Of a DNA stretch of 64,000 nt, positions 128-11,449 are shown piece after piece. Positions within the stretch are counted from its first letter, which is position 1. Each line of letters begins with the position of its first letter. A model generated the notes under the pieces. The model was not told where the DNA came from. It saw only the letters and a list, made by a program, of their open reading frames with translations, and did not search any database. The position numbers and the translations under genes were made by a program. Source of the stretch: Lachnospira multipara LB2003 (GTDB lineage Bacteria > Bacillota > Clostridia > Lachnospirales > Lachnospiraceae); the NCBI RefSeq assembly GCF_000702205.1, contig NZ_JNKW01000007.1:62001-126000 (forward strand), given 5' to 3'.

Positions 128-2578
128 ATGAATAAGAAGTTGTACAATGTTATGAATTGGCCAGAAATTGAAGGAATTGTTTATGCGGATTGTAAAAATC
201 CCATGAATATGCTTGGTAGCCATTTAATTAAAGAAGGAAATTTAATACAGATTTATAGACCTGATGCCGTAAGCGTGTCTATAAAGGTTGATACTAAGAC
301 TTATGAACTAGAAAAAGTGGATGAATCAGGCTTTTTTGCATGTTTAGTTCCTTCAAGAAAAAAGAAGCTAGATTATTTAGTTACTTTAGAAGATGTTAAG
401 GGCAAAACAATAACTTTTAAGGATGCTTATTCTTTTGATTTAAAGCCAAAGAATGATGAATTTAAGAACTTTTTTGCAGGACATGAATATGATGCTAATA
501 AAATCTTTGGCAGTAAGGAAATTAGCATTGATGGAGTTAGTGGAACACTTTTTACAATTTGGGCGCCACAGGTTTCACGAGTAAGTGTTGTGGGAGATTT
601 TAATAAGTGGAATGGAAAAATCCATCAAATGGAAGAAATCGATGATAGGGGCATATATAGACTTTTTATTCCAGGAGTTTGTAAAGGTGATAAATATCTT
701 TATGAATTAAAGGTAAGGGGCGAGAAGGAATACTATAAAATTGATCCTTATGCAACAGAATTCACTAAGGGTAAGGAAAATTATAGTGTTGTTGGAAGTC
801 CATTAAAAAAGACAGCCAAGAAATTAAAAACAAAGCAAACTACATCACCACGAATTTATGAATTAAATTTACTTGAATGGAGCAAGAAAAGTGGGATTAA
901 GACATATGCAAAACTTGCAGAAGATATAGCCAATTATCTTAGTAAGCTAGGATTTGATTATGTAAATCTTATGCCTGTAGCAGAGTATTTTAATGAGGAT
1001 ACTTATGGCTATACAACAATAGGTATGTTTGCTCCAACAAAGAGATTTGGCAATCCAGATGATTTTGTGGAATTTATTGACATTTTGCATAGTAAAAATA
1101 TAGGTGTAATTATTGATTTTAACTGCGCATACTTTGGCACAGATACTAGAGGACTTCATAATTTTAATAAGACTAATTTATATGGTGGTCTATCACCAAT
1201 CCTAGAAAAAAATGAAACATGGAATGTCTATACTTATGATTATTACAACAATTGCGTATTGTCATTCCTTTATAGTAGCTTTAATTATTGGATAAGTAAT
1301 TTTGGCATTGATGGTATTAGAATAGATAGTCTTGCATCTATGCTTTATTTAGATTACGGTAAGGAGCCGGGAAGTTGGATTCCTAATATGTATGGTGGTA
1401 ATGAAAATTTAGCTGCTATAGAATTCATAAAAAATCTAAACAAAATGGCTGCTAAGGAAAATGTAATTACTATTGCTGAAGAATCTAGTGGTTGGATTGG
1501 AATTACTAAGGATTTTGACGGGGATAATCTAGGTTTTGACTATGTCTTAAATAAGAATTGGACTAACGATTATCTTGAATTTATGGAGCAGGATCCATTA
1601 TTTAGAAAAGGCCTTTATGACAATCTTATTTTGCCAATGGTTTATAACTACAATGAGAGATTTATACAAAAATTTAGTGCCGATGATTTATATGGCACGG
1701 GAGTTTCTCTTTACGCACTTGCAGCAGGAAATGATGCAGTTAAGAAAAAGTCGGATGTAAGACTTGCCCTTGCATATTTATATTTATATCCAGGAGCTAA
1801 GATGATTACCTTTGGTCAGGAACTAGGACTTGATTTAACTAATCCGGCCCTTAAATGGGATGCTAGTGATGAGGATATAGCCTTTATTAAGGACTTAAAT
1901 CATTTTATTACAAGTAATAGTGAAGTTTTTGATCAAGACACAAAGGAAGATGGCTTTAGATGGGTGGAGGATTGCAATAGCGAAGAGACAATTCTTGGCT
2001 TTGCACGAATTGGAAAAAATGGACAGACATTAACTGCAGTGTTTAATTTTACACCTGTTGAAAGAGTTAAATATCGCCTACATGTATTAGAAGCTGGAAA
2101 ATATAGCATGATTTTTAATACTAATGAAGAAAAATATGGTGGAGATGAGAAGCTAACTAAGGAAATTTTTAAATCAGATAAAAATGATGAAAATCCAAAG
2201 GAATTAGACTATATAGATATTGATATACCAGGGCTTTCTATGTTAGTCTTTAGCTGTGAAAAATATACAGAAAGAGAAATTGAAGAGAACAGAATTTTAA
2301 AAGAAGCAGCAGTTGCTAAGAAAAATGCAGAAGATAAGGTAAAGGTAGCTAAGGAACTTGCAACAAAGGCTAAAGAAGAAGCTATAGCAGCCCTTGAGGC
2401 ACAAAAAAGGGCAGAGGAAGCTGCAAGATTAGCTCTTGAAGCTAAGAATGAAGCACAAAAAAAGGCGGATGATGCAGTGCGTGAAGCTATTAGAATTGAT
2501 GAAGAAACAAAAGTATTACTAGAAGAATTAAAAAACAAGGTATTTAAAAAAGATACTAAAAAAGCAACTAGAAAATAA
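128..2578 (+). CDS. GlgB-like GH13 protein with degenerate active site and coiled-coil tail
   Basis: An 816-aa protein related to 1,4-alpha-glucan branching enzymes. There is an N-terminal beta domain, a CBM48-like domain (about 139-205, FTIWAPQVSRVSVVGDFNKW) and a GH13 barrel (about 240-570). Region II keeps the nucleophile (GIDGIRIDSLASMLYLDYG, Asp400) and region III keeps the acid/base (IAEESSGW, about Glu451). Region IV, SHDE in active enzymes, reads NYNE (507-510), so the transition-state Asp is replaced by Asn509. The region I histidine (PAHF) is Tyr (CAYF). After about residue 712 comes a roughly 100-residue Ala/Lys/Glu-rich coiled coil absent from ordinary GlgB. The start follows AGGGGAGGAAG. 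A glycogen-binding or scaffold role is inferred; catalysis looks doubtful. Confidence 0.8.
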   Translation: MNKKLYNVMNWPEIEGIVYADCKNPMNMLGSHLIKEGNLIQIYRPDAVSVSIKVDTKTYELEKVDESGFFACLVPSRKKKLDYLVTLEDVKGKTITFKDAYSFDLKPKNDEFKNFFAGHEYDANKIFGSKEISIDGVSGTLFTIWAPQVSRVSVVGDFNKWNGKIHQMEEIDDRGIYRLFIPGVCKGDKYLYELKVRGEKEYYKIDPYATEFTKGKENYSVVGSPLKKTAKKLKTKQTTSPRIYELNLLEWSKKSGIKTYAKLAEDIANYLSKLGFDYVNLMPVAEYFNEDTYGYTTIGMFAPTKRFGNPDDFVEFIDILHSKNIGVIIDFNCAYFGTDTRGLHNFNKTNLYGGLSPILEKNETWNVYTYDYYNNCVLSFLYSSFNYWISNFGIDGIRIDSLASMLYLDYGKEPGSWIPNMYGGNENLAAIEFIKNLNKMAAKENVITIAEESSGWIGITKDFDGDNLGFDYVLNKNWTNDYLEFMEQDPLFRKGLYDNLILPMVYNYNERFIQKFSADDLYGTGVSLYALAAGNDAVKKKSDVRLALAYLYLYPGAKMITFGQELGLDLTNPALKWDASDEDIAFIKDLNHFITSNSEVFDQDTKEDGFRWVEDCNSEETILGFARIGKNGQTLTAVFNFTPVERVKYRLHVLEAGKYSMIFNTNEEKYGGDEKLTKEIFKSDKNDENPKELDYIDIDIPGLSMLVFSCEKYTEREIEENRILKEAAVAKKNAEDKVKVAKELATKAKEEAIAALEAQKRAEEAARLALEAKNEAQKKADDAVREAIRIDEETKVLLEELKNKVFKKDTKKATRK

Positions 2579-2592
2579 GAAGGAAGTAAGAA

Positions 2593-3480
2593 ATGTTAGA
2601 AGTATTAAATGAGACATCAGTAAATGATGCAACAGTGCAAGTCTCGAATTTTTTTTCTAAAAACAATTTAATGTCGCATTTAAATGATTTTGGAAATTGG
2701 GCAGTAAGTGCAGTTGCAACTATTATTCTTGCCTTAGTTATTTGGCTAATTGGTAAAAAGGTTATTAAGACAGTAATTAAGATTTTAAGAAGAATGCTTG
2801 ATAGGGGTAAGCTTGATGAAGGAGTTAAGACCTTTACTCTATCTGCAACAAGAGTGTTATTATACATTTTCCTATTTATTATTGTTGTTGATACCTTAGG
2901 CTTTCAGACAACATCCCTAATAACACTTTTTGGTACTGGTGCCCTTGCTATTGGTATGTCATTACAGGGCAGTTTATCAAATTTTGCAGGAGGAATCTTA
3001 ATTCTTATATTTAAGCCTTTTGTAATTGGAGATTATATTGTGGTTGGAACTAATGAAGGTAGCGTTGTCTCTATTGGTATACTTTATACTAAGTTAAGAA
3101 CAGTAGATAATAAGGTTATTATGCTTCCAAATGGTACACTAAGTAATTCTAATATTACTAATGTGGGAGCTGAGAATTATAGACGACTTGATATTGAAAT
3201 TGGTATTTCTTATGAGGCAGATATTAAGGATGCTAAGAGAGTTTTATCAGAAATTATTGATAAGAAGAAATCAATTCTTAAAATACCTGGTAAGGAAGCA
3301 AGAGTAGTTGTAAAGAGTTTAGATGATTCTTGCGTTACACTTGAGACAAGAACATGGTTAAAAACAGAAGATTATTGGGATACAAGATTTGAATTGCTTG
3401 AAGAATTCAAAGAAGGCCTGGATAAAAATGGTATTAGTATTCCATTTAATCAGATGGATGTTCATTTAATAAGTGAATAG
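2593..3480 (+). CDS. MscS-family mechanosensitive channel
   Basis: A 295-aa small-conductance mechanosensitive channel that releases solutes on hypo-osmotic shock. It has an N-terminal amphipathic stretch and membrane segments near residues 35-55 and 88-110. The pore-lining helix and following loop show the family pattern GTGALAIGMSLQGSLSNFAG (about 115-134) and FKPFVIGDYIVV. A soluble beta/alpha-beta domain fills the C-terminus. The length is typical of MscS. It begins 14 bp after the GlgB-like gene with SD GAAGGAAG, so the two are probably co-transcribed. A terminator at 3504-3546 closes the unit. Confidence 0.9.
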   Translation: MLEVLNETSVNDATVQVSNFFSKNNLMSHLNDFGNWAVSAVATIILALVIWLIGKKVIKTVIKILRRMLDRGKLDEGVKTFTLSATRVLLYIFLFIIVVDTLGFQTTSLITLFGTGALAIGMSLQGSLSNFAGGILILIFKPFVIGDYIVVGTNEGSVVSIGILYTKLRTVDNKVIMLPNGTLSNSNITNVGAENYRRLDIEIGISYEADIKDAKRVLSEIIDKKKSILKIPGKEARVVVKSLDDSCVTLETRTWLKTEDYWDTRFELLEEFKEGLDKNGISIPFNQMDVHLISE

Positions 3481-3503
3481 GCATATTAATAATAGCTTAA
3501 AAC

Positions 3504-3546
3504 TAGGATAGTTATTGCAATTAGCAGTAATTATCCTATTTTTTTA
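3504..3546 (+). terminator. Rho-independent terminator after mscS
   Basis: Inverted repeat TAGGATA (3504-3510) / TATCCTA (3532-3538), extended inward with one or two mismatches, followed by a run of T. It separates the GlgB-like/mscS unit from the amino-acid transporter. Confidence 0.8.
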
Positions 3547-3576
3547 TACTAGAGAATGAATATTTTTTACAATTTA

Positions 3577-3621
3577 TGCATAAATATTCACAAAATACCT
3601 TTACTTTTGCATAATTATGCA
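3577..3621 (+). promoter_or_regulatory. Pair of ARG-box-like palindromes
   Basis: TGCATAAATATTCA (3577-3590) and the perfect palindrome TGCATAATTATGCA (3608-3621) resemble the ArgR/AhrC operator consensus (TGAATAWWWATTCA). Their centres are 31 bp apart, about three helical turns. A weaker half-match (TGAATATTTTTTAC, 3557-3570) lies 20 bp upstream, the usual ArgR pair spacing. Placement over the promoter of an amino-acid transporter fits arginine-dependent repression. This is inference from the motif only. Confidence 0.5.
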
Positions 3622-3628
3622 GTAATAT
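3600..3628 (+). promoter_or_regulatory. Candidate promoter of amino-acid transporter
   Basis: TTTACT (3600-3605), 17-bp spacer, TAATAT (3623-3628). Each hexamer matches consensus at 4 of 6 positions. The second palindrome occupies the spacer, so a bound repressor would block RNA polymerase. An alternative -10, TACAAT, lies at 3638-3643. Confidence 0.45.
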
Positions 3629-3663
3629 ATGAAATCGTACAATAAAAATTTAGGAGGGCACTA

Positions 3664-5199
3664 ATGAAGGCAAATAAATCAAAACACATTGCTATAACAA
3701 TAGTCATAATTGCTTTAATTGCAGTGGCAATAACTGTGGGCATTAGACTAACTAATAATGGAAATGCTAAGGTGATTTCATCAATTGATGATATTAGCGG
3801 TTCTACTGTTGGTGTTCAGCTTGGTACAACAGCTGATATTTATGTATCTGATGATTTTGAGGGAGACGATGCAGGTACTAAAATTGAAAGATTTAATAAG
3901 GGGGCAGATGCTATTCAGGCATTGATTCAGGGAAAGACTGATTTGGTAATGATAGATGAGCAGCCTGCTAAATCCTATATAAGTAAGAATCCTTCACTTG
4001 CTATTTTAGATGAGGCATATGCAGAGGAAGAATATGCATTTGCAATTTCTAAATCAAATCACGAATTAACAGAAAAAATTGATGGAGCTCTTTCTGAGTT
4101 AAAAGCTGATGGAACAATTAGTTCTATTATTAATAACTATATTGGTTCAGATGAACAAAAAGGACAGACTCCATATTTAAAAAAGGATGTGGAACGTACT
4201 AATGGAAAATTAGTTGTAGCAACTAATGCAACATTCCCTCCATATGAATATTATGATAATAGTAATTCAAATGGTATTGTAGGTATTGATATTGATATTA
4301 TGCAGGCCGTTTGCGATAAATTAGGATATGAGCTTGTGGTAGAAGATATGGAATTTGATTCTATTATTACTTCTATTAGAACAGGTAAGGCAGATGTAGG
4401 TGCTGCTGGTATGACAGTAACTGAAGATAGAAAGAAGAATGTGGATTTTACAGATTCTTATACAGAAGCTAAGCAGGTTGTTATTGTTAACACACATAGT
4501 GCAAGTAATACACTTTCTTTTGCAGAAAAATTTAAGCAGAACTTTATTGAAGATGGAAGATATAACTACCTTTTAACAGGTCTTAAAAATACATTAATTA
4601 TTACATTCTTTGCTGTAATAATTGGTATTGTATTTGGTTCTTTAATCGCTATTATAAGAACAACCCATGATAGAAATGGTGGACTTACAATACTTAATTT
4701 CCTCGCAAGAGTATATTTAATTGTTATTCGTGGTACACCAACAATGGTACAGTTGCTTATTATTTACTATGTTGTATTTGCATCTGTAAATGTAAATAAG
4801 GTATTTGTTGCAATTATAGCCTTTGGTTTAAATTCCGCAGCTTATGTTGCAGAAGTTGTTAGATCAGGTATTATGTCAGTGGATAAGGGACAGTTTGAGG
4901 CAGGACGTTCACTTGGTCTTCCATATAACAAAACAATGAGATTGATTATTTTACCACAGGCTCTAAAGAATATTTTACCAGCCCTTGGTAATGAAATGAT
5001 TACATTACTTAAGGAAACATCTATAAGTGGTTATATTGGACTTATGGATTTAACAAAGGGTAGTGATATTATTAGAAGTGTAACATATGAAGCATTGCTT
5101 CCACTTACAGTTGTAGCATTAATCTATCTTTTACTTGTAACAGTATTAACAGCGCTTGTTTCTAAACTCGAAAGGAGCCTAAGAAAAAATGAACGATAA
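3664..5199 (+). CDS. Amino-acid ABC transporter: permuted substrate-binding domain fused to permease
   Basis: A 511-aa fusion for polar amino-acid uptake. After a membrane anchor (about 9-28), residues 39-165 match the second half of a family-3 binding protein ([19 protein letters not shown] through the [20 protein letters not shown] end). Residues 180-280 match the first half ([55 protein letters not shown]). The halves are thus in reversed order, a circular permutation. Residues 295-510 are a GlnP/HisM-type permease with RGTPT and the ATPase-contact EAGRSLGLP motif. The closing segment overlaps the ATPase gene by 11 bp. The substrate is unknown; the upstream ARG-box-like sites suggest arginine or another cationic amino acid. 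Confidence 0.88.
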
Positions 5200-5929
5200 T
5201 GAAGTATTAATTAAAATCGATAATTTACATAAAACATTTGATAAGCATGAGGTATTAAAGGGAATCTCAACAACTATTAGTAAGGGCGAGGTTATTGCAA
5301 TAATTGGTCCTTCAGGATGTGGTAAGTCAACATTCCTTCGTTCTCTTAATTTATTAGAAGTTCCAACAAAGGGAACAGTAACATTTGAAGGAAATGATAT
5401 AACAGCAGCTCACGTAGATATAGACAAGACTAGGGAAAGAATTGGTATGGTTTTCCAGCAGTTTAATTTATTCCCTAATATGACAATTAAGGAAAATATT
5501 ATGCTAGCTCCTGTTCAACTAGGAAAGATGACAAAGGAAGAAGCATCTATTAAGGCTGATGAATTACTTGAAAGAGTAGGCTTATTAGAAAAGGGGAATA
5601 GCTATCCTGCTATGTTATCAGGTGGTCAAAAGCAGCGTATAGCTATAGCTCGTTCTCTTGCTATGAATCCAGATGTTATGCTCTTTGATGAACCAACATC
5701 TGCCCTAGATCCAGAAATGGTAGGAGAAGTATTAAGTCTTATGCAGGAACTTGCAGCTGATGGTATGACAATGGTTGTAGTTACTCATGAAATGGGCTTT
5801 GCAAGAGAAGTAGCAAATCGAGTATTATTTATTCACGATGGTGTAATTGCTGAAGATGGTACACCAGATGAAATCTTTAATAATCCTAAGTCAGATAGAT
5901 TAAAGGATTTCTTAAGTAAGGTGCTTTAA
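5189..5929 (+). CDS. Amino-acid ABC transporter ATP-binding protein (GlnQ type)
   Basis: A 246-aa ATPase subunit powering the fused binding protein/permease upstream. Walker [10 protein letters not shown] (40-48), Q-loop [10 protein letters not shown], signature LSGGQKQR (143-150), Walker [16 protein letters not shown] and the H-loop [15 protein letters not shown] are all intact, as in the polar amino-acid subfamily. The start has SD AGGAG inside the end of the permease gene, so the genes are translationally coupled. Length is typical for GlnQ/ArtM/TcyN. Confidence 0.95.
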
Positions 5930-6055: not shown

Positions 6056-6472
6056 ATATAAAAATTATGATAAAATAAATTTATAAATTTTTTTTATAAA
6101 TAGGAGGGATTTATGAAACTAAAAAGATTTTTTGTAGCGGCGTTATTGACATTGTCAGTTATATTGTCTTCATTAGCATTGGTATATGCAGGGGAGAGTG
6201 TTGGAACATATGGATATGCATATCATAACGTAGAAGGAAGAGATGGATTGTATAAATTAAGTACTGGTACAGTAAGAAGAAATGGTGCACAACAATCATC
6301 ATACAAAATAACAAAGACATATGAGGATGGTGATTTTGAAACAATACTTTCTGGTGTGAAAAATGACGATGTTATGTACACAAGCGGTTATGAATACATA
6401 GAAGATTATGTAACGGAACACAAAACATATAAGAATTCTTGCCCAGTGTATAGTATTACATTGTATAAGTAA
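6019..6472 (+). repeat. Direct repeat, left copy (promoter plus secreted-protein gene)
   Basis: About 450 bp of promoter, leader and coding sequence that recurs near 10996-11449, displaced by 4977 bp, with the same offset for the -10 box, start codon and stop codon. The copies flank the LytTR/ABC/lipoprotein genes. Confidence 0.8.
6113..6472 (+). CDS. Small secreted protein, paralogue 1
   Basis: A 119-aa protein with a Sec signal peptide (MKLKRFF, hydrophobic core, cleavage likely after VYA at 24-26) and a mature part of about 93 residues. The mature part begins with GTYGYAY, is rich in Tyr, Gly and Thr, and ends KVYSITLYK-like (here PVYSITLYK). By hand alignment it is 86/119 identical to the protein at 11090. 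I do not recognise a family. Size, Sec signal and a neighbouring LytTR/ABC cassette recall the lactococcin 972 class of Sec-exported bacteriocins, but the diagnostic motifs are not evident. One cysteine (Cys110) is absent from the paralogue. SD AGGAGGG is well spaced. Confidence 0.85.
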   Translation: MKLKRFFVAALLTLSVILSSLALVYAGESVGTYGYAYHNVEGRDGLYKLSTGTVRRNGAQQSSYKITKTYEDGDFETILSGVKNDDVMYTSGYEYIEDYVTEHKTYKNSCPVYSITLYK

Positions 6473-6495
6473 TAGTAATAGATATTATTATGAAA

Positions 6496-6531
6496 TAATA
6501 ACAAGTGGATATAATAATCCACTTGTTATTA
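6496..6531 (+). promoter_or_regulatory. Long perfect hairpin without U-tract
   Basis: A 15-bp perfect stem with core AATAACAAGTGGAT (6497-6510) / ATCCACTTGTTATT (6517-6530) and a 6-nt loop, between the secreted-protein gene and the LytTR gene. No T-run follows, so it may be an mRNA-stabilising end, a processing site or a leaky terminator that lowers expression of the downstream genes. Confidence 0.7.
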
Positions 6532-6566
6532 ATAAAATCAAAGTAGCAAGAATGGGGAGGATATGT

Positions 6567-6857
6567 ATGACAATTCAAGAGATTGATTTATCACTTGTAG
6601 AGTATGTAGAAGTGAGGGGCCATTATCTATATTTTATTAGTGATAATTTTGAACATAAAATTAGGGGTTCATTAAGACAAAATTATGAGATTTTAGAAAA
6701 CAAGGAATTTTTAAGGGTTAATAAATCTACTATGGTTAATAAAAATCATGTGGAAGATACTAGAAAAAAAAGCAGATATTTATATTTAAAAAGTGGTAAA
6801 TGTATTGAAATAAGTCGAAGAAAACTAAAGATTATAGATTTAAAAAAGGTAATATAA
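6567..6857 (+). CDS. Stand-alone LytTR DNA-binding regulator
   Basis: A 96-aa protein made of little more than one LytTR domain, the DNA-binding fold of AgrA, ComE and LytR. Recognisable elements are SLVEYVEVRGHYLYFISDN, SLRQNYEILENKEFLRVNKS, MVNKNHVEDT and the closing GKCIEISRRK. There is no receiver or sensor domain. The start is ATG 6567 because GGGGAGG (6554-6560) lies six bases before it; an upstream in-frame ATG at 6552 overlaps that site. It is followed 12 bp later by the first permease, so it is part of the ABC cassette and probably controls it and/or the three repeated promoters. Confidence 0.85.
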   Translation: MTIQEIDLSLVEYVEVRGHYLYFISDNFEHKIRGSLRQNYEILENKEFLRVNKSTMVNKNHVEDTRKKSRYLYLKSGKCIEISRRKLKIIDLKKVI

Positions 6858-6869
6858 TAGAGGGTGAAT

Positions 6870-8072
6870 ATGGTAGATGCTAGATTAATATACAGAATAT
6901 TTATGAAAAGACCATTATCTATATTTGTTATGACAATAATGTCAATGATTTCTTTTTATATGATTTCCAATGAATTGATGGAAAGTATATCTAATAAAGT
7001 TTATACTCAAAGAATTCACAATATGTTTTCAATAAATGAAAGTCGAGTTGGATTGATAAAAATGACTGATGATGTTGAATCAGGAAATATTGATATAAAA
7101 AAAGTAAAGCAAGATTTTGAAAATAGTGAATATATAAAAGGTATTGGTTTTAATTCCTCAGATTATATTTATGAAGGGATAAATGCAGAAGTTTATTTTA
7201 TTGATGAAAGTATGTTAGCTTCATATAATATTAGTGTGGATAATGAATTAAAAGAGAATATGTTAAAAGATACAGAATATATACCGGTTGTAGTAGGTTA
7301 TAATTTAAGGAATAAGTTTAATATAGGTGATGTTATTGATTCAACTATTGGAAATAAATATAGGGTTTATGGCTATTTAGCTAAAGATGATTCTATGTAT
7401 CATGAACAAGAATTATTTGTGGGATGGACTAATTCCGATTTATATAATTTGGATGATTCATTTGTTGCTATTGTAGATAATGTAGAGGATTTTCGTTTTT
7501 TTAATTGGTATTATATAAATTTCTATGTAGATGAAGGTGATTATAATCTTGCAAAAGAGGAAATTTTAAAAATTGCAGAAAGTGATAACATCAATATACA
7601 AGTTATAAATAGGGGAGAGGAAATATTAGAAGCACAGGAAGATAATAATATTCTTCATAGTCCCAATTTTTATATTTTAATTGTAGTATTACTAGTTAAT
7701 ATAATTACTATAACTATAATGACAATAACATATGTAATGATTGAAAAAAGGCAATATGGTATTTTATCTATATGTACATATAGTAGAAGAAAGATATCAT
7801 TTTTAATCATCAAACAGAATGCAATTATAGTCTATTTAGCAGCAATAATTGCTTGGGCCATTAATCAAAAGTTATATAATGGAAGCATTATTATAAAATT
7901 AGCAGACTACCCATCAAATTTGCTTTATAAGATAACATTATATAGTACAATGATTATTTTGCCATTAGTATTATTTCTTATTGCATCTCTTATTATAGTA
8001 ATTTCAAGTATGATTCCGGTTATTCTAATAAATAGATATAAAATACCAGAGTTAATTCATAGTAATAATTAA
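6870..8072 (+). CDS. FtsX-like ABC permease subunit 1
   Basis: A 400-aa membrane protein with one N-terminal transmembrane helix (about 13-35), an extracytoplasmic domain of roughly 230 residues, and three C-terminal helices (about 270-295, 310-335, 355-385). This is the topology of MacB/FtsX-type permeases that act on substrates outside the membrane. The sequence between helices (EKRQYGILSICTYSRRKISF) is the usual coupling segment. ATG 6870 was chosen over GTG 6864 because GAGGG precedes it. It partners the second permease and the ATPase downstream. Likely roles are extrusion of, or immunity to, a toxic peptide; the substrate is unknown. Confidence 0.75.
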   Translation: MVDARLIYRIFMKRPLSIFVMTIMSMISFYMISNELMESISNKVYTQRIHNMFSINESRVGLIKMTDDVESGNIDIKKVKQDFENSEYIKGIGFNSSDYIYEGINAEVYFIDESMLASYNISVDNELKENMLKDTEYIPVVVGYNLRNKFNIGDVIDSTIGNKYRVYGYLAKDDSMYHEQELFVGWTNSDLYNLDDSFVAIVDNVEDFRFFNWYYINFYVDEGDYNLAKEEILKIAESDNINIQVINRGEEILEAQEDNNILHSPNFYILIVVLLVNIITITIMTITYVMIEKRQYGILSICTYSRRKISFLIIKQNAIIVYLAAIIAWAINQKLYNGSIIIKLADYPSNLLYKITLYSTMIILPLVLFLIASLIIVISSMIPVILINRYKIPELIHSNN

Positions 8073-8090
8073 ACTAGAGGTGGATTAGAA

Positions 8091-9200
8091 ATGAAAAAAA
8101 TAATAAATATACTTTTTAGACATAAAATGATATTAATATTTGTTATGATAGGGCAATTTGCAATCTATATAAGCGTATTTGGAATTCTAAATACACTTAA
8201 TATTGCTGAATTAAAAGAAAAAGATAGGATTGAATCTGTATATAAATCAAGGATAAAAATGGAAATAATAAAATCTTTTGATTCCTCTTTGATATCAGAG
8301 GATTTAAAGAATATTGATAAAGCTAATATTATTATTACAAAAGGCTTGGCTGTAAATTATAAAGAAGCAAATTCGTCATATATAGCAGACCTTATTATAG
8401 CTTTAAATGAAGAATTGCCATACAAATTAATAGAAGGACATATACCAGGCACAGATCCAGATGATAAAGGGAAAAATCTTGTAGCAATAGGTAGAGATAA
8501 ATGTAAATATACATATGAAGAAAATGGAAAAAAATATATTACTCTTGATAACGAAAAATATGAGGTATGTGGTATATTAGGAAGTGAATATTCAGATTTT
8601 TGGGATTATAAAATTATATTAAATGTAAATAATATTGGAGATAATGTAATAAGTAGAATTAACGAGCTTACGTATTTTAATATAGAGATTTTATCAAATG
8701 AAATTAATGTAAGTGATATTTATGAAGATATTTATGTGGCAATAAAAACATGTAATAATGACGCTGCTATAGATTCATATAAACTATATGGTAGTGGGGA
8801 AAGTGAAATTAGAAAAACTTTAACTAGAAATAACATTAACAAAAAAATATGTATTTTGTTATTTAGTTTATGCAATTGTATTGTAATATCGGAATTCTAT
8901 TTCCTAGACTATAAAAAAGAAATAGTAATTTATAAAATTCTTGGCGCAAAAAATTCATTTATCATAAAAAGATTAATGATATCATTTGTTGTTATTAGTA
9001 GCTTTACATTGATTCTATATGGATTAGTTGCTACATTGTTAAATACAATTGGAATGAATGGATTAATGTATTTTAGTGTTAGTGCTAAGAATATAATAAG
9101 TATGTTTATAGTTATATTATTAGTTACAGCTTTATCTATGATATATCCATATATAAAAATGACAAAATTAAATATTACAAGCATGAGATTAAAGGAGTAG
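8091..9200 (+). CDS. FtsX-like ABC permease subunit 2
   Basis: A 369-aa membrane protein with one N-terminal helix (about 13-33), a large extracytoplasmic domain, and three C-terminal helices (about 252-270, 292-318, 335-355). DYKKEIVIYKILGAKNSFI before the last two helices is the classic FtsX-family coupling motif (compare REIAILRALGA). It differs in sequence from subunit 1, so the transporter is probably a heterodimer. SD GAGGTGG lies 18 bp after the preceding stop. The ATPase starts 2 bp after its end, indicating tight translational coupling. Confidence 0.8.
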   Translation: MKKIINILFRHKMILIFVMIGQFAIYISVFGILNTLNIAELKEKDRIESVYKSRIKMEIIKSFDSSLISEDLKNIDKANIIITKGLAVNYKEANSSYIADLIIALNEELPYKLIEGHIPGTDPDDKGKNLVAIGRDKCKYTYEENGKKYITLDNEKYEVCGILGSEYSDFWDYKIILNVNNIGDNVISRINELTYFNIEILSNEINVSDIYEDIYVAIKTCNNDAAIDSYKLYGSGESEIRKTLTRNNINKKICILLFSLCNCIVISEFYFLDYKKEIVIYKILGAKNSFIIKRLMISFVVISSFTLILYGLVATLLNTIGMNGLMYFSVSAKNIISMFIVILLVTALSMIYPYIKMTKLNITSMRLKE

Positions 9201-9202
9201 TT

Positions 9203-9874
9203 ATGATAGATATTAAGGGGTTAACAAAAGTTTTTAAAGATGGTGATTATAATAAAGTCGCTTTAGATGATATTAATTTAAAAATCAATGATGGAGAAAT
9301 GGTTTCTATAATGGGGCCATCTGGTTCAGGAAAATCTACTTTGCTAAATATTATTGCATGCTTTGATGATGCAAGTAAAGGTGAGGTGTATATAAATGAT
9401 AATAATATAACTTCACTTAAAAGAAATAAAAAAGAAAAATTTCGAAGAGACAATATAAGCTTTATATTTCAAGATTATGCCTTACTTGAGAATTTTACAT
9501 GTTATGAAAATGTAGAATTACCTTTATTAATTAACAAAGTAAGATCAAGAAAGGCTAAGACCTTATCTTTATTAGAAAAGATGAATTTGTTAGAAGAGAA
9601 GAATAAAAAAATTAATAAATTATCAGGTGGACAAAGACAAAGAGTAGCAATTGCAAGAGCTCTAGCACTTGATACAAATTTAATTCTTGCTGATGAACCT
9701 ACGGGTGCATTAGATCAAAAAATGGGTGAAGAAGTAACAGACATCTTACGCAGTATTAATAAAGAAGGAAAAACAGTTATTATTGTTACACATGATGAAA
9801 AGGTGGCTAATAAAACAGATAGAATTATTAAGCTAATGGATGGAAAAATAATAGATGATATAAAAAATGTTTAG
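9203..9874 (+). CDS. MacB/LolD-type ABC ATPase
   Basis: A 223-aa ATPase for the two FtsX-like permeases. Walker A GPSGSGKST (38-46), signature LSGGQRQRVAIARAL (from 140), Walker B LILADEPTGALD (161-172) and the switch VTHDEKVA are intact. The LADEPTGALD form is characteristic of the MacB/LolD/BceA branch, which works on extracytoplasmic substrates, including antimicrobial-peptide resistance systems. It ends the LytTR-permease-permease-ATPase cassette; a terminator begins about 35 bp later. Confidence 0.92.
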   Translation: MIDIKGLTKVFKDGDYNKVALDDINLKINDGEMVSIMGPSGSGKSTLLNIIACFDDASKGEVYINDNNITSLKRNKKEKFRRDNISFIFQDYALLENFTCYENVELPLLINKVRSRKAKTLSLLEKMNLLEEKNKKINKLSGGQRQRVAIARALALDTNLILADEPTGALDQKMGEEVTDILRSINKEGKTVIIVTHDEKVANKTDRIIKLMDGKIIDDIKNV

Positions 9875-9908
9875 ATTAGGTAAAATCAAAGATTAGAAAT
9901 GATATAAA

Positions 9909-9959
9909 AAGGGAGCTGGAAAAAATGATTATCTCATTTTTTCACAGCCCCTTCTTTTT
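9909..9959 (+). terminator. Terminator after ABC cassette (duplicated type)
   Basis: A long hairpin around AAAAAATGA / TCATTTTTT with a GC-rich base (GGGAGCTG ... CAGCCCC) followed by TTCTTTTT. Its core is nearly identical to the terminator at 11476-11523, so the island carries duplicated 3' ends as well as duplicated promoters. Confidence 0.85.
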
Positions 9960-10016
9960 GTTTTTAGTATATATATGAAAAATGATTTTGACCGATTAAA
10001 GCCAAAGCGTTGTTAA
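9960..10016 (+). promoter_or_regulatory. Conserved island promoter, copy 2
   Basis: TTGACC (9988-9993), 17-bp spacer, TGTTAA (10011-10016). The block 9960-10006 differs from copy 1 at only two of 47 bases, one of which improves the -35 box while the -10 is weaker. It drives the lipoprotein gene. Confidence 0.65.
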
Positions 10017-10071
10017 ATACTATATTTATGATACTATTAAATTATTAATTAAATAGTAATGGGGGGAATGT

Positions 10072-11001
10072 ATGAAAAAAATATTGTGTACAACATTAAG
10101 TTTAATGCTTTTGTTTTTAACAGCATGTAGTAAAACAAGTGAAAGTGAAACAGAAGAAAAATTATCAGAAGAATTCACTTATGAACAAACATCTGAGTTA
10201 ATAGATAATAGTGGACAAAAATATTATAATGTTAATAGCTGGGTTAGAATACCAGAACTTGATTTTCATGATACACAAAATAATCTGATAGAAGCATACT
10301 TTCCTAATCAATATTTTGAAAGTGGCGTAGATTCGTTATTAGATTCCTTTGATAATAAGCCTGTGATAATAAATGTTCCGAATGGAACAAAGAAAAAAGA
10401 GGAGTATGCTAGTCAGGGTGTGTTATTTGTTAAAAATGGTAAATTGCCAATTATACAGAATGATGAAATTGTAGATTATTATAATAATATGAATTCTGCA
10501 ATCATGTCTTGTATTTTGTATGGAGTTGTTGGAGAAAGTACATCATTCGAATTTAATCCTGATAATTATAGGACAATAATAACAAATCATACACGATGTA
10601 GATGTGATGTTTTACCTTTTTCAGCAGCTTTATATGAGGATTTTTTTGAATGCGATATGAGCTTTCAACTTGATATTTATGGAGTATCAAAAGAATACTT
10701 TAATGATAAATTGGGAACGTATACATATTCATCGATACAATATGAAGAATATTGTAAAGGAATAGAAGAAGATTATAAAAGCTTTGATCATTTATCTAGC
10801 TATAATTTAGATGAATCAGGTGTTTATTATATAGATTTTACACAATATAACGATGCATATGAGGATTATTATTTAGTTATGACAGATAAATCTGTGGATA
10901 ACATTACATATAATATTTATGGAAGTGGTGGATATATAGTGGAAGATGAAAATGCATATCAGAAATGGAGAGAGGATAATAAAGATAAGTTTATAAATTA
11001 A
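10072..11001 (+). CDS. Lipoprotein of unknown function
   Basis: A 309-aa lipoprotein. The N-terminus MKKILCTTLSLMLLFLTAC has a lysine-rich start, a hydrophobic core and the lipobox LTAC, so Cys19 should be lipidated and the protein held on the outer face of the membrane. A Ser/Glu-rich linker (20-45) is followed by an acidic, Tyr- and Asn-rich globular part. I recognise no domain. It uses the same promoter block as the two small secreted proteins and lies between the ATPase and paralogue 2, which suggests it is exported with them as an immunity, receptor or accessory protein. SD GGGGGGAA is strong. Confidence 0.8.
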   Translation: MKKILCTTLSLMLLFLTACSKTSESETEEKLSEEFTYEQTSELIDNSGQKYYNVNSWVRIPELDFHDTQNNLIEAYFPNQYFESGVDSLLDSFDNKPVIINVPNGTKKKEEYASQGVLFVKNGKLPIIQNDEIVDYYNNMNSAIMSCILYGVVGESTSFEFNPDNYRTIITNHTRCRCDVLPFSAALYEDFFECDMSFQLDIYGVSKEYFNDKLGTYTYSSIQYEEYCKGIEEDYKSFDHLSSYNLDESGVYYIDFTQYNDAYEDYYLVMTDKSVDNITYNIYGSGGYIVEDENAYQKWREDNKDKFIN

Positions 11002-11003
11002 TT

Positions 11004-11032
11004 TTAACCGATTAAAGCCAAACTATTGTAAT
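11004..11032 (+). promoter_or_regulatory. Conserved island promoter, copy 3
   Basis: TTAACC (11004-11009), 17-bp spacer, TGTAAT (11027-11032), matching copy 1. It starts three bases after the lipoprotein stop codon, so the upstream part of the 47-bp block is replaced by coding sequence here. That marks TTTTAACCGATTAAAGCC and onward as the minimal conserved core. Confidence 0.7.
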
Positions 11033-11089
11033 ATATAAAAATGGTGATAATATAAATTTATAAATTTTTTTATGAAATAGGAGGGATTT

Positions 11090-11449
11090 ATGAAGCTAAA
11101 AAGATTTTTTGTGGCAACATTATTGGCATCGTCAGTTATAATGTCATCATTAGCATTGGTATATGCAGGGTATAATGATGGAACATATGGATATGCCTAT
11201 CGAAATGTAGAAGGAAGAGATGGAGTATATAAAATAAGTGCTGGTACAGTAAGAAAAAATGGTGCACAACAATCATCAATTAATGTAATAAAAACATATT
11301 ATGATGGTGAAGTTCAAATAGAATCTTCTGGTGTGAGAAATGAAGATGTTAATTACACAAGCGGTTATGAATACATAGAAGATTATGTAACGGAACACAG
11401 AACATATAAGGGTGCATATAAGGTTTATGACATTACATTGTATGAGTAA
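11090..11449 (+). CDS. Small secreted protein, paralogue 2
   Basis: A 119-aa paralogue of the protein at 6113. The signal peptide is nearly identical (cleavage after VYA) and the mature part of about 93 residues contains GTYGYAYRNVEGRDGVYK, GTVRKNGAQQSS and an invariant SGYEYIEDYVTEH segment. It contains no cysteine. Differences from paralogue 1 concentrate in the middle (about 64-80) and at the last ten residues, while the first 60 residues and the SGYEYIEDYVTEH block are conserved. Function is unknown; a secreted peptide toxin, signal or surface protein are all possible. It has its own promoter (copy 3), SD AGGAGGG and terminator. Confidence 0.85.
   Translation: MKLKRFFVATLLASSVIMSSLALVYAGYNDGTYGYAYRNVEGRDGVYKISAGTVRKNGAQQSSINVIKTYYDGEVQIESSGVRNEDVNYTSGYEYIEDYVTEHRTYKGAYKVYDITLYE

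Follow-up and report, generated by a model that had tools for sequence, protein, structure and literature searches.

A natural circular permutant of the family-3 binding fold fused to an amino-acid ABC permease in Lachnospira multipara, and permuted relatives in Clostridia

A 511-residue protein encoded in a 64,000-nucleotide stretch of Lachnospira multipara LB2003 (the window, meaning that whole stretch) carries a binding domain in which the family-3 substrate-binding fold is naturally circularly permuted. The C-terminal half of the domain precedes the N-terminal half, and an amino-acid permease follows in the same chain. This order had been noticed in an initial annotation of the DNA, and the observation is confirmed here. 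We consider it very likely that the protein is a subunit of a polar-amino-acid ABC importer, with arginine the most likely substrate, whose external domain is such a permutant and which works and arose as proposed below. The parts of the gene and the adjoining ATPase are as follows (window positions):

3664–5199 (+): gene for the permuted binding domain plus amino-acid ABC permease, 511 aa (ORF, Pfam, phmmer)
3676–3747 (+): residues 5–28, hydrophobic N-terminal helix without cysteine, probable membrane anchor (sequence; helix 5–28 in the full-length model)
3775–4155 (+): residues 38–164, the half that comes first, equivalent to the C-terminal half of family-3 binding proteins and made up of lobe 2, hinge strand 2, and the lobe-1 tail (phmmer)
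4156–4194 (+): residues 165–177, new linker bridging the old C- and N-termini (profile coordinates)
4195–4503 (+): residues 178–280, N-terminal half (lobe-1 head, hinge strand 1), placed second (Pfam, phmmer)
4504–4560 (+): residues 281–299, tether that leads on from hinge strand 1 into the permease, of low model confidence (mean pLDDT 63 for 281–290 and 65 for 291–300)
4561–5196 (+): residues 300–511, permease domain (BPD_transp_1; ArtQ/GlnP-like) (profiles, phmmer)
5189–5929 (+): GlnQ-like ABC ATPase, 246 aa, its start overlapping the end of the fusion gene (ORF, profiles)

The reversal is visible in comparison with a single solved chain. Searched with phmmer against PDB sequences, residues 33–161 aligned with residues 105–232 of AncQR (4zv1; 79.0 bits) and residues 180–277 with residues 9–104 of the same chain (83.9 bits); because the E-value of AncQR against the whole fusion sequence is 1.2e-46, the reversed order stands far above chance. 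PF00497 (SBP_bac_3) scored 120.1 bits against a cut-off of 26.4, split in two stretches with the halves reversed, and the fusion lacks the collinear run in which the N-half comes before the C-half. The limits of the halves fall within a few residues of those first proposed (39–165 and 180–280). The claimed fusion to an amino-acid permease was likewise upheld, with BPD_transp_1 at 80.9 bits (cut-off 26.4) and a match of residues 299–508 to 4yms chain D (E 2.1e-46). At E 0.001, Pfam returned only PF00497, PF00528, and a sub-threshold PF10613 on the fusion, and the same threshold for PF00497 brought out one further protein in the genome, in ordinary order. AncQR is, by its structure titles, an ancestral protein bound to arginine and to glutamine. 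D98 and R256, which we take to grip the amino and carboxyl groups of the amino acid as in GlnBP, are invariant in all 31 aligned fusion proteins. Among solved chains, the tandem SBD1–SBD2 of GlnPQ (6h30) covers residues 37–273 in one stretch through its natural C1–N2 junction (phmmer), and within the best 60 of 434 and the best 60 of 258 matches no other solved chain was covered over both halves in one stretch by the permuted profile.

Structure prediction, proposed in the initial annotation as the check that could expose two independent truncated domains, instead gave a single confident one. AlphaFold2 modeled residues 30–290 with 74 relatives as one domain (mean pLDDT 93.8, pTM 0.88), in which two long strands (residues 120–128 and 267–276) lie at the places expected of hinge strands; in this prediction the two halves fold together as one unit. 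Structural matches were ranked with Foldseek and VIA-align, both of which align in sequence order, and binding-protein folds were found. Among these sequential matches OpuAC (2b4l) came first (Z 12.8, rmsd 4.8, 216 aligned), while TmArgBP aligned through its isolated lobe 1 at Z 10.8–10.9 over 94–96 residues with 43%–44% identity. The full-length model (31 sequences) was of lower quality (pLDDT 80.6, pTM 0.58), with an N-terminal helix at residues 5–28 and a low-confidence tether at about 281–300.

The surroundings of the gene are those of a polar amino-acid (PAAT) importer, in that a BPD_transp_1 permease is joined by a GlnQ/ArtP-like ATPase. The ATPase matches the GlnQ model at E 7.8e-94 and 313.5 bits, below the equivalog cut-off of 379. 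Upstream of the fusion gene lies a gene with a profile match to MscS-like channels, and Rfam at gathering thresholds gave no matches in the whole window. Separately, positions 6113–11449 may hold a small-peptide export or immunity cassette, flanked by two similar 119-aa secreted-looking proteins (6113–6472 and 11090–11449) and containing a LytTR-domain protein, an FtsX-like permease, a 309-aa lipoprotein-like protein, a 402-aa protein without a match, and an ABC ATPase whose nearest model is bacteriocin export, at a score under that model's cut-off.

The permuted order is widespread in related bacteria. We refer to a cut placed as in the 511-aa fusion as type A and to a cut in the other hinge loop as type B. 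Within the genus, the whole fusion was matched in 19 of 22 genomes including its own (start at residue 1–38, end at 511), one more (G006) matched in part, at the edge of a contig, and two had no whole-fusion match (G003 and G016). Within the family, at least 81 of 397 genomes (own included) had a near-full match in permuted order, a lower bound because at most six candidates were scored per genome; the count rests on 87 places at E 1.3e-57 or better, with two places in each of four genomes and two places in G239 excluded. The latter genome was rejected as a carrier of permutants, its two near-full matches coming from an ordinary triple tandem whose C1–N2 junctions mimic the permuted order. All 30 loci taken from the family search, one of them the window itself, place the C-half before the N-half. 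A search for homologues of the same order had been suggested with the initial annotation; in a scan of named genomes, the best 80 of 562 confirmed relatives, chosen by similarity, all have C before N. The binding domain is fused to a permease in 30 of these 80 loci and is an ORF of its own in 45 (L127 included, as well as L117, a provisional entry because it is cut by a contig end); four are tandems (L088, L092, L111, and L090, the last with an interrupted frame) and one is interrupted (L122). A permease is in or beside the binding protein in 79 of the 80, and an ATPase was found in 74, four of the six lacking one being on short or cut contigs.

Type A proteins are present in isolates titled, among others, Roseburia hominis An869, Parasporobacterium paucivorans DSM 15970, Acetitomaculum ruminis DSM 5522, Ruminococcus bromii YE282, and Blautia schinkii DSM 10518. 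A scan of 391 genomes of the class added type A proteins in other families, with C then N in 19 of 19 loci (L158–L176). Among 398 genomes of the phylum, two near-full matches outside the class were found at E 1e-28, both at 33% identity: one (G893) is type A, and the other (L236, in G1099) was rejected as a permutant, being an ordinary tandem. The new linker is 14–18 residues long in 153 of 163 type A ORFs (profile coordinates, locus repeats included), and 115 of the 146 distinct type A proteins with a single unit have a lipobox-like N-terminus by a loose pattern. Relatives in ordinary order have halves 50%–60% identical to those of the fusion, as in G026 (62% and 53%). Some type A genes (L109, L115, and L131) were seen in contigs titled as methanogenic archaea, probably misbinned bacterial contigs. 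One 615-aa ORF (L216) has a permuted pair at residues 382–607 preceded by about 380 residues that match neither half, and three loci (L018, L019, and L215) bear a divergent permuted form in which binding domain(s), permease, and ATPase lie on one chain, arranged C-N-C-N-permease-ATPase or C-N-permease-ATPase.

Type B proteins begin just ahead of hinge strand 2; the lobe-1 tail comes next, followed by the lobe-1 head and then hinge strand 1, and the chain finishes in lobe 2. Type B proteins were recognized at L024, L056, L057, and L059–L065, with 34 distinct proteins in all, and a type B query had near-whole-length matches in 28 of 291 genomes of the class (20 at 55%–75% identity and 8 at 42%–47%). 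At least three visibly different kinds of linker join the old ends. Judged by the order of elements, the ends of the chain are close to the hinge in lobe 2 for both types, as opposed to lobe 1 for ordinary proteins. A scan of viral contigs for a type B locus yielded only L217 (2617–3534, + strand, on an IMG/VR contig), in which the cut falls at a third position, beyond the first helix of lobe 2. Beside one group of type B proteins (L062, L063, L024, L059, L060, L064, and L065), the GlnQ-like ATPases have an insertion that splits the match, ranging from about 20–30 residues up to about 100 (L063).

Phylogenetic analysis, with all halves rearranged into ordinary order and the types named by architecture before tree building, suggests repeated permutation. 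The main tree had 91 rows (43 ordinary, 34 type A, and 14 type B) after identity filtering of 263 units, short units and L122 having been left out beforehand; L022 and L023 drew a warning from IQ-TREE for joining as long branches. The best tree calls for seven changes for type A, at least four of them forced by starred branches, and five for type B (at least five forced). An 83-row tree, made without the rows flagged as long (L156, L022, L023, L018 unit 2, and L067), without L217, and without the first units of L088 and L111, which are degenerate, calls for six (at least four) and four (at least four), respectively. A single origin was rejected by the AU test both for type A (p = 0.0092), a rejection that may rest on distant rows (L018, L066, L230, the L173/L175/L214 group, and the L016/L169 group), and for type B (p = 0.0097). 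A single origin of the nearer type B group (L056, L057, and L197–L204) was also rejected with both lobes (p = 0.0164) and with the N-half (p = 0.0105), and was not rejected with the C-half alone (p = 0.104). For the fusion's own clade, one origin was not rejected (p = 0.249, or 0.182 with L166 added), these sets having been picked after seeing the tree; a 72-row tree groups L166 with the clade. Each type thus seems to have arisen more than once, and we claim no number of origins because changes may be reversals and because of the distant rows behind the type A rejection. On balance, we favor the reading that in Clostridia the family-3 fold was permuted independently several times, at both hinge loops. 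In every form seen here the chain ends have left lobe 1 for lobe 2, by which the tether would pull on the other lobe.

How the permuted domain came to be joined to the permease was addressed with the 72-row tree (33 stand-alone and 32 fused type A rows, with seven ordinary-order rows as outgroup), which leaves out 24 divergent or broken loci, the rest being identity-filtered. Type A including L166 falls on one side with support of 94/78, not starred. Because the three earliest branches of the fusion's clade are all stand-alone and the tree has eight changes between fused and stand-alone states, with at least four forced by starred branches for the fused state, permutation probably preceded fusion in this clade, and fusion then probably occurred more than once. 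Among the rows counted as stand-alone, a few may be cut short (L117) or shifted in frame (L115). The initial annotation had instead derived the gene from a permease-fused, GlnPQ-like tandem of two binding domains that lost its outer halves, an origin with which the uninterrupted alignment of 6h30 across its C1–N2 junction would agree, as would the existence of an ordinary tandem ending in a permease (L055). That origin was not borne out: the stand-alone early branches, the repeated changes of state, and the many loci with the binding domain as its own ORF (the 45 of 80 above, one cut by a contig end) make it unlikely. The tandem intermediates it had called for do exist in both ordinary (L055) and permuted (L088, L092, and L111) form, so that a tandem step prior to fusion is conceivable. 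In the first unit of L088 and L111 both halves are degenerate (68 and 50 bits, and 58 and 42 bits, respectively; other halves score 97–137), and such joint decay of a C-half and an N-half is what would be expected if C-N is the unit. The L055 locus (913–3813, − strand) consists of three nearly identical units in ordinary order ahead of the permease, N-C-N-C-N-C-permease, and its junctions mimic a permutant in searches.

Other readings of the gene leave its history aside. Interrupted frames in three relatives (L058, L090, and L122) might hint at an assembly or gene-model artefact or a decayed pseudogene, a reading that has next to no probability and that we regard as refuted by conservation, given that 19 of the 22 genus genomes have an open full-length match and that all 80 named-genome loci keep the order. 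The halves might also be completed in trans, the C-half of one chain pairing with the N-half of the other, since a homodimeric importer would bring two copies of the fusion next to each other and the linker between the halves is long enough to allow a swap; yet AlphaFold2 folds a single chain as one confident unit, and many stand-alone relatives have the same order and a similar linker with no permease to hold two chains together, making such swapping distinctly improbable. It is very unlikely, finally, that the permuted domain has ceased to deliver substrate to the permease and serves as a tethered sensor or scavenger. The attachment of the tether near the hinge, the modest pTM of the full-length model, and two loci (L067 and L070) with neither permease nor ATPase within the stretch examined would fit that role, whereas the near-constant company of a permease (79 of 80 loci) and an ATPase (74 of 80) speaks for transport.

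We return to the importer subunit with a permuted domain. Its chain would start in lobe 2, pass through hinge strand 2 to the lobe-1 tail helix, cross the new linker to the lobe-1 head, and leave along hinge strand 1 for the permease. The two lobes would close on one amino acid, and the domain, held both by the N-terminal membrane helix (probably by lipid in many relatives) and by the permease, would pass it on to a homodimer of the permease powered by the neighboring GlnQ-like ATPase. Permutation would place both chain ends, and hence the tether, in lobe 2 rather than lobe 1; in the fusion's clade it would have come before the joining to the permease, and similar permutations would have occurred more than once in Clostridia. 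The ligand, the mode of docking, and any advantage of having chain ends in lobe 2 are inferred.

The likely ligand and its regulation are suggested by two sites in front of the fusion gene:

3577–3590 (+): ARG-box-like site TGCATAAATATTCA, upstream of the fusion gene (exact pattern match)
3608–3621 (+): second ARG-box-like site, the palindrome TGCATAATTATGCA (exact pattern match)

They lie 31 bp apart, start to start, and 87 to 43 bases before the start codon, and are the only exact matches in the 64 kb window to TGMATWWWWATKCA, a version of the ARG-box motif widened to fit the window's own sites. With one mismatch allowed, the window has four sites against a shuffle mean of 4.4, no more than chance. 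The whole genome has eight exact sites (three for the reversed control pattern), one of them between argC and argG, both above NCBIfam cut-offs; four of the eight are within ORFs (C2, C3, C13:14793, and C14). Besides the sites in the window and between argC and argG, the exact sites are on contig 13 (14585 and 14793), contig 3 (238031), contig 2 (214554), and contig 14 (39978), and these include the four within ORFs. The genome also encodes an ArgR-family protein (PF01316, 82 bits). Upstream of type A genes, exact sites were found in 8 of 150 cases (60 shuffles: mean 0.13, maximum 2) and sites with at most one mismatch in 34 of 150 (mean 2.62, maximum 7). The corresponding counts were 3 and 11 of 34 for type B (shuffled means 0.02 and 0.60) and 2 and 8 of 48 for ordinary-order genes (0.05 and 0.70). 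This enrichment is support, not proof, because the rows are related and the pattern was derived from the window, and it bears on the ligand rather than on the permutation because ordinary-order relatives have it as well. The two upstream sites, with the pattern recurring between argC and argG, suggest that the fusion is a subunit of an ArgR-controlled arginine importer, in which ArgR would repress the operon, and the enrichment suggests that the transporter family is probably arginine-responsive, irrespective of how the halves are ordered.

Circular permutation of binding proteins is mostly familiar as a tool of protein engineering. With family-3 (PF00497) proteins such as GlnH, ArtJ, TmArgBP, and AncQR the fusion shares both halves at significant scores, the conserved pocket positions, and the operon partners, but its halves are reversed, a new linker joins them, and its chain ends lie in lobe 2 rather than lobe 1. 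GlnPQ-type importers (6h30) likewise have the binding domain N-terminal to a PAAT permease in one chain with a separate ATPase, but there the domains are ordinary tandems, whereas here there is one permuted domain, with permuted tandems among the relatives.

The impression in the initial annotation that no such permutation had been described for ABC importers is wrong in part: cases in other families have been published, and in the open-access literature no natural circular permutant of family 3 was found among the matches listed. A solved, ligand-binding example is the sugar-binding protein TpMglB-2 (Tp0684; "Type Ic / Cluster Bc"), whose type occurs in treponemes and Gram-positive bacteria and is probably tethered, its authors suggesting a link to membrane tethering (PMC4990184). 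It resembles the fusion as a natural circular permutation of an ABC-importer binding protein but has a Type I sugar-binding fold, a different cut point, and a fourth hinge crossing, with no permease fusion mentioned in the parts of that paper considered here (PMC4990184); the fusion, for its part, had no Pfam match at E 0.001 to the type I sugar-binding family that marks "Type Ic". Permutation relations were also described in 2008 among betaine-binding proteins, molybdate-binding proteins, and CysB (PMC2395249). OpuAC (2b4l) and ProX thus offer a further likeness, permutation inside a group of importer binding proteins, though in another family and deduced from structures at <24% identity (PMC2395249), whereas sequence comparison is enough to identify the halves here. 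The kind of rearrangement is therefore already known; what looks new is its occurrence in family 3, together with a second site of cutting, tandems of permuted units, and more than one origin.

Nature appears to have permuted binding proteins more than once, in common gut bacteria and within intact operons. Because a profile scan shows such a domain as two partial stretches, domain order should be checked before genes of this kind are called broken. The ordinary and permuted relatives form natural pairs for studying how the order of halves and the tether point affect hinge motion and delivery. If the reading given here is true, these proteins would show transporter topology evolving convergently, out of sight of profile annotation, and would allow a direct test of how tether point, hinge, and transport are linked.
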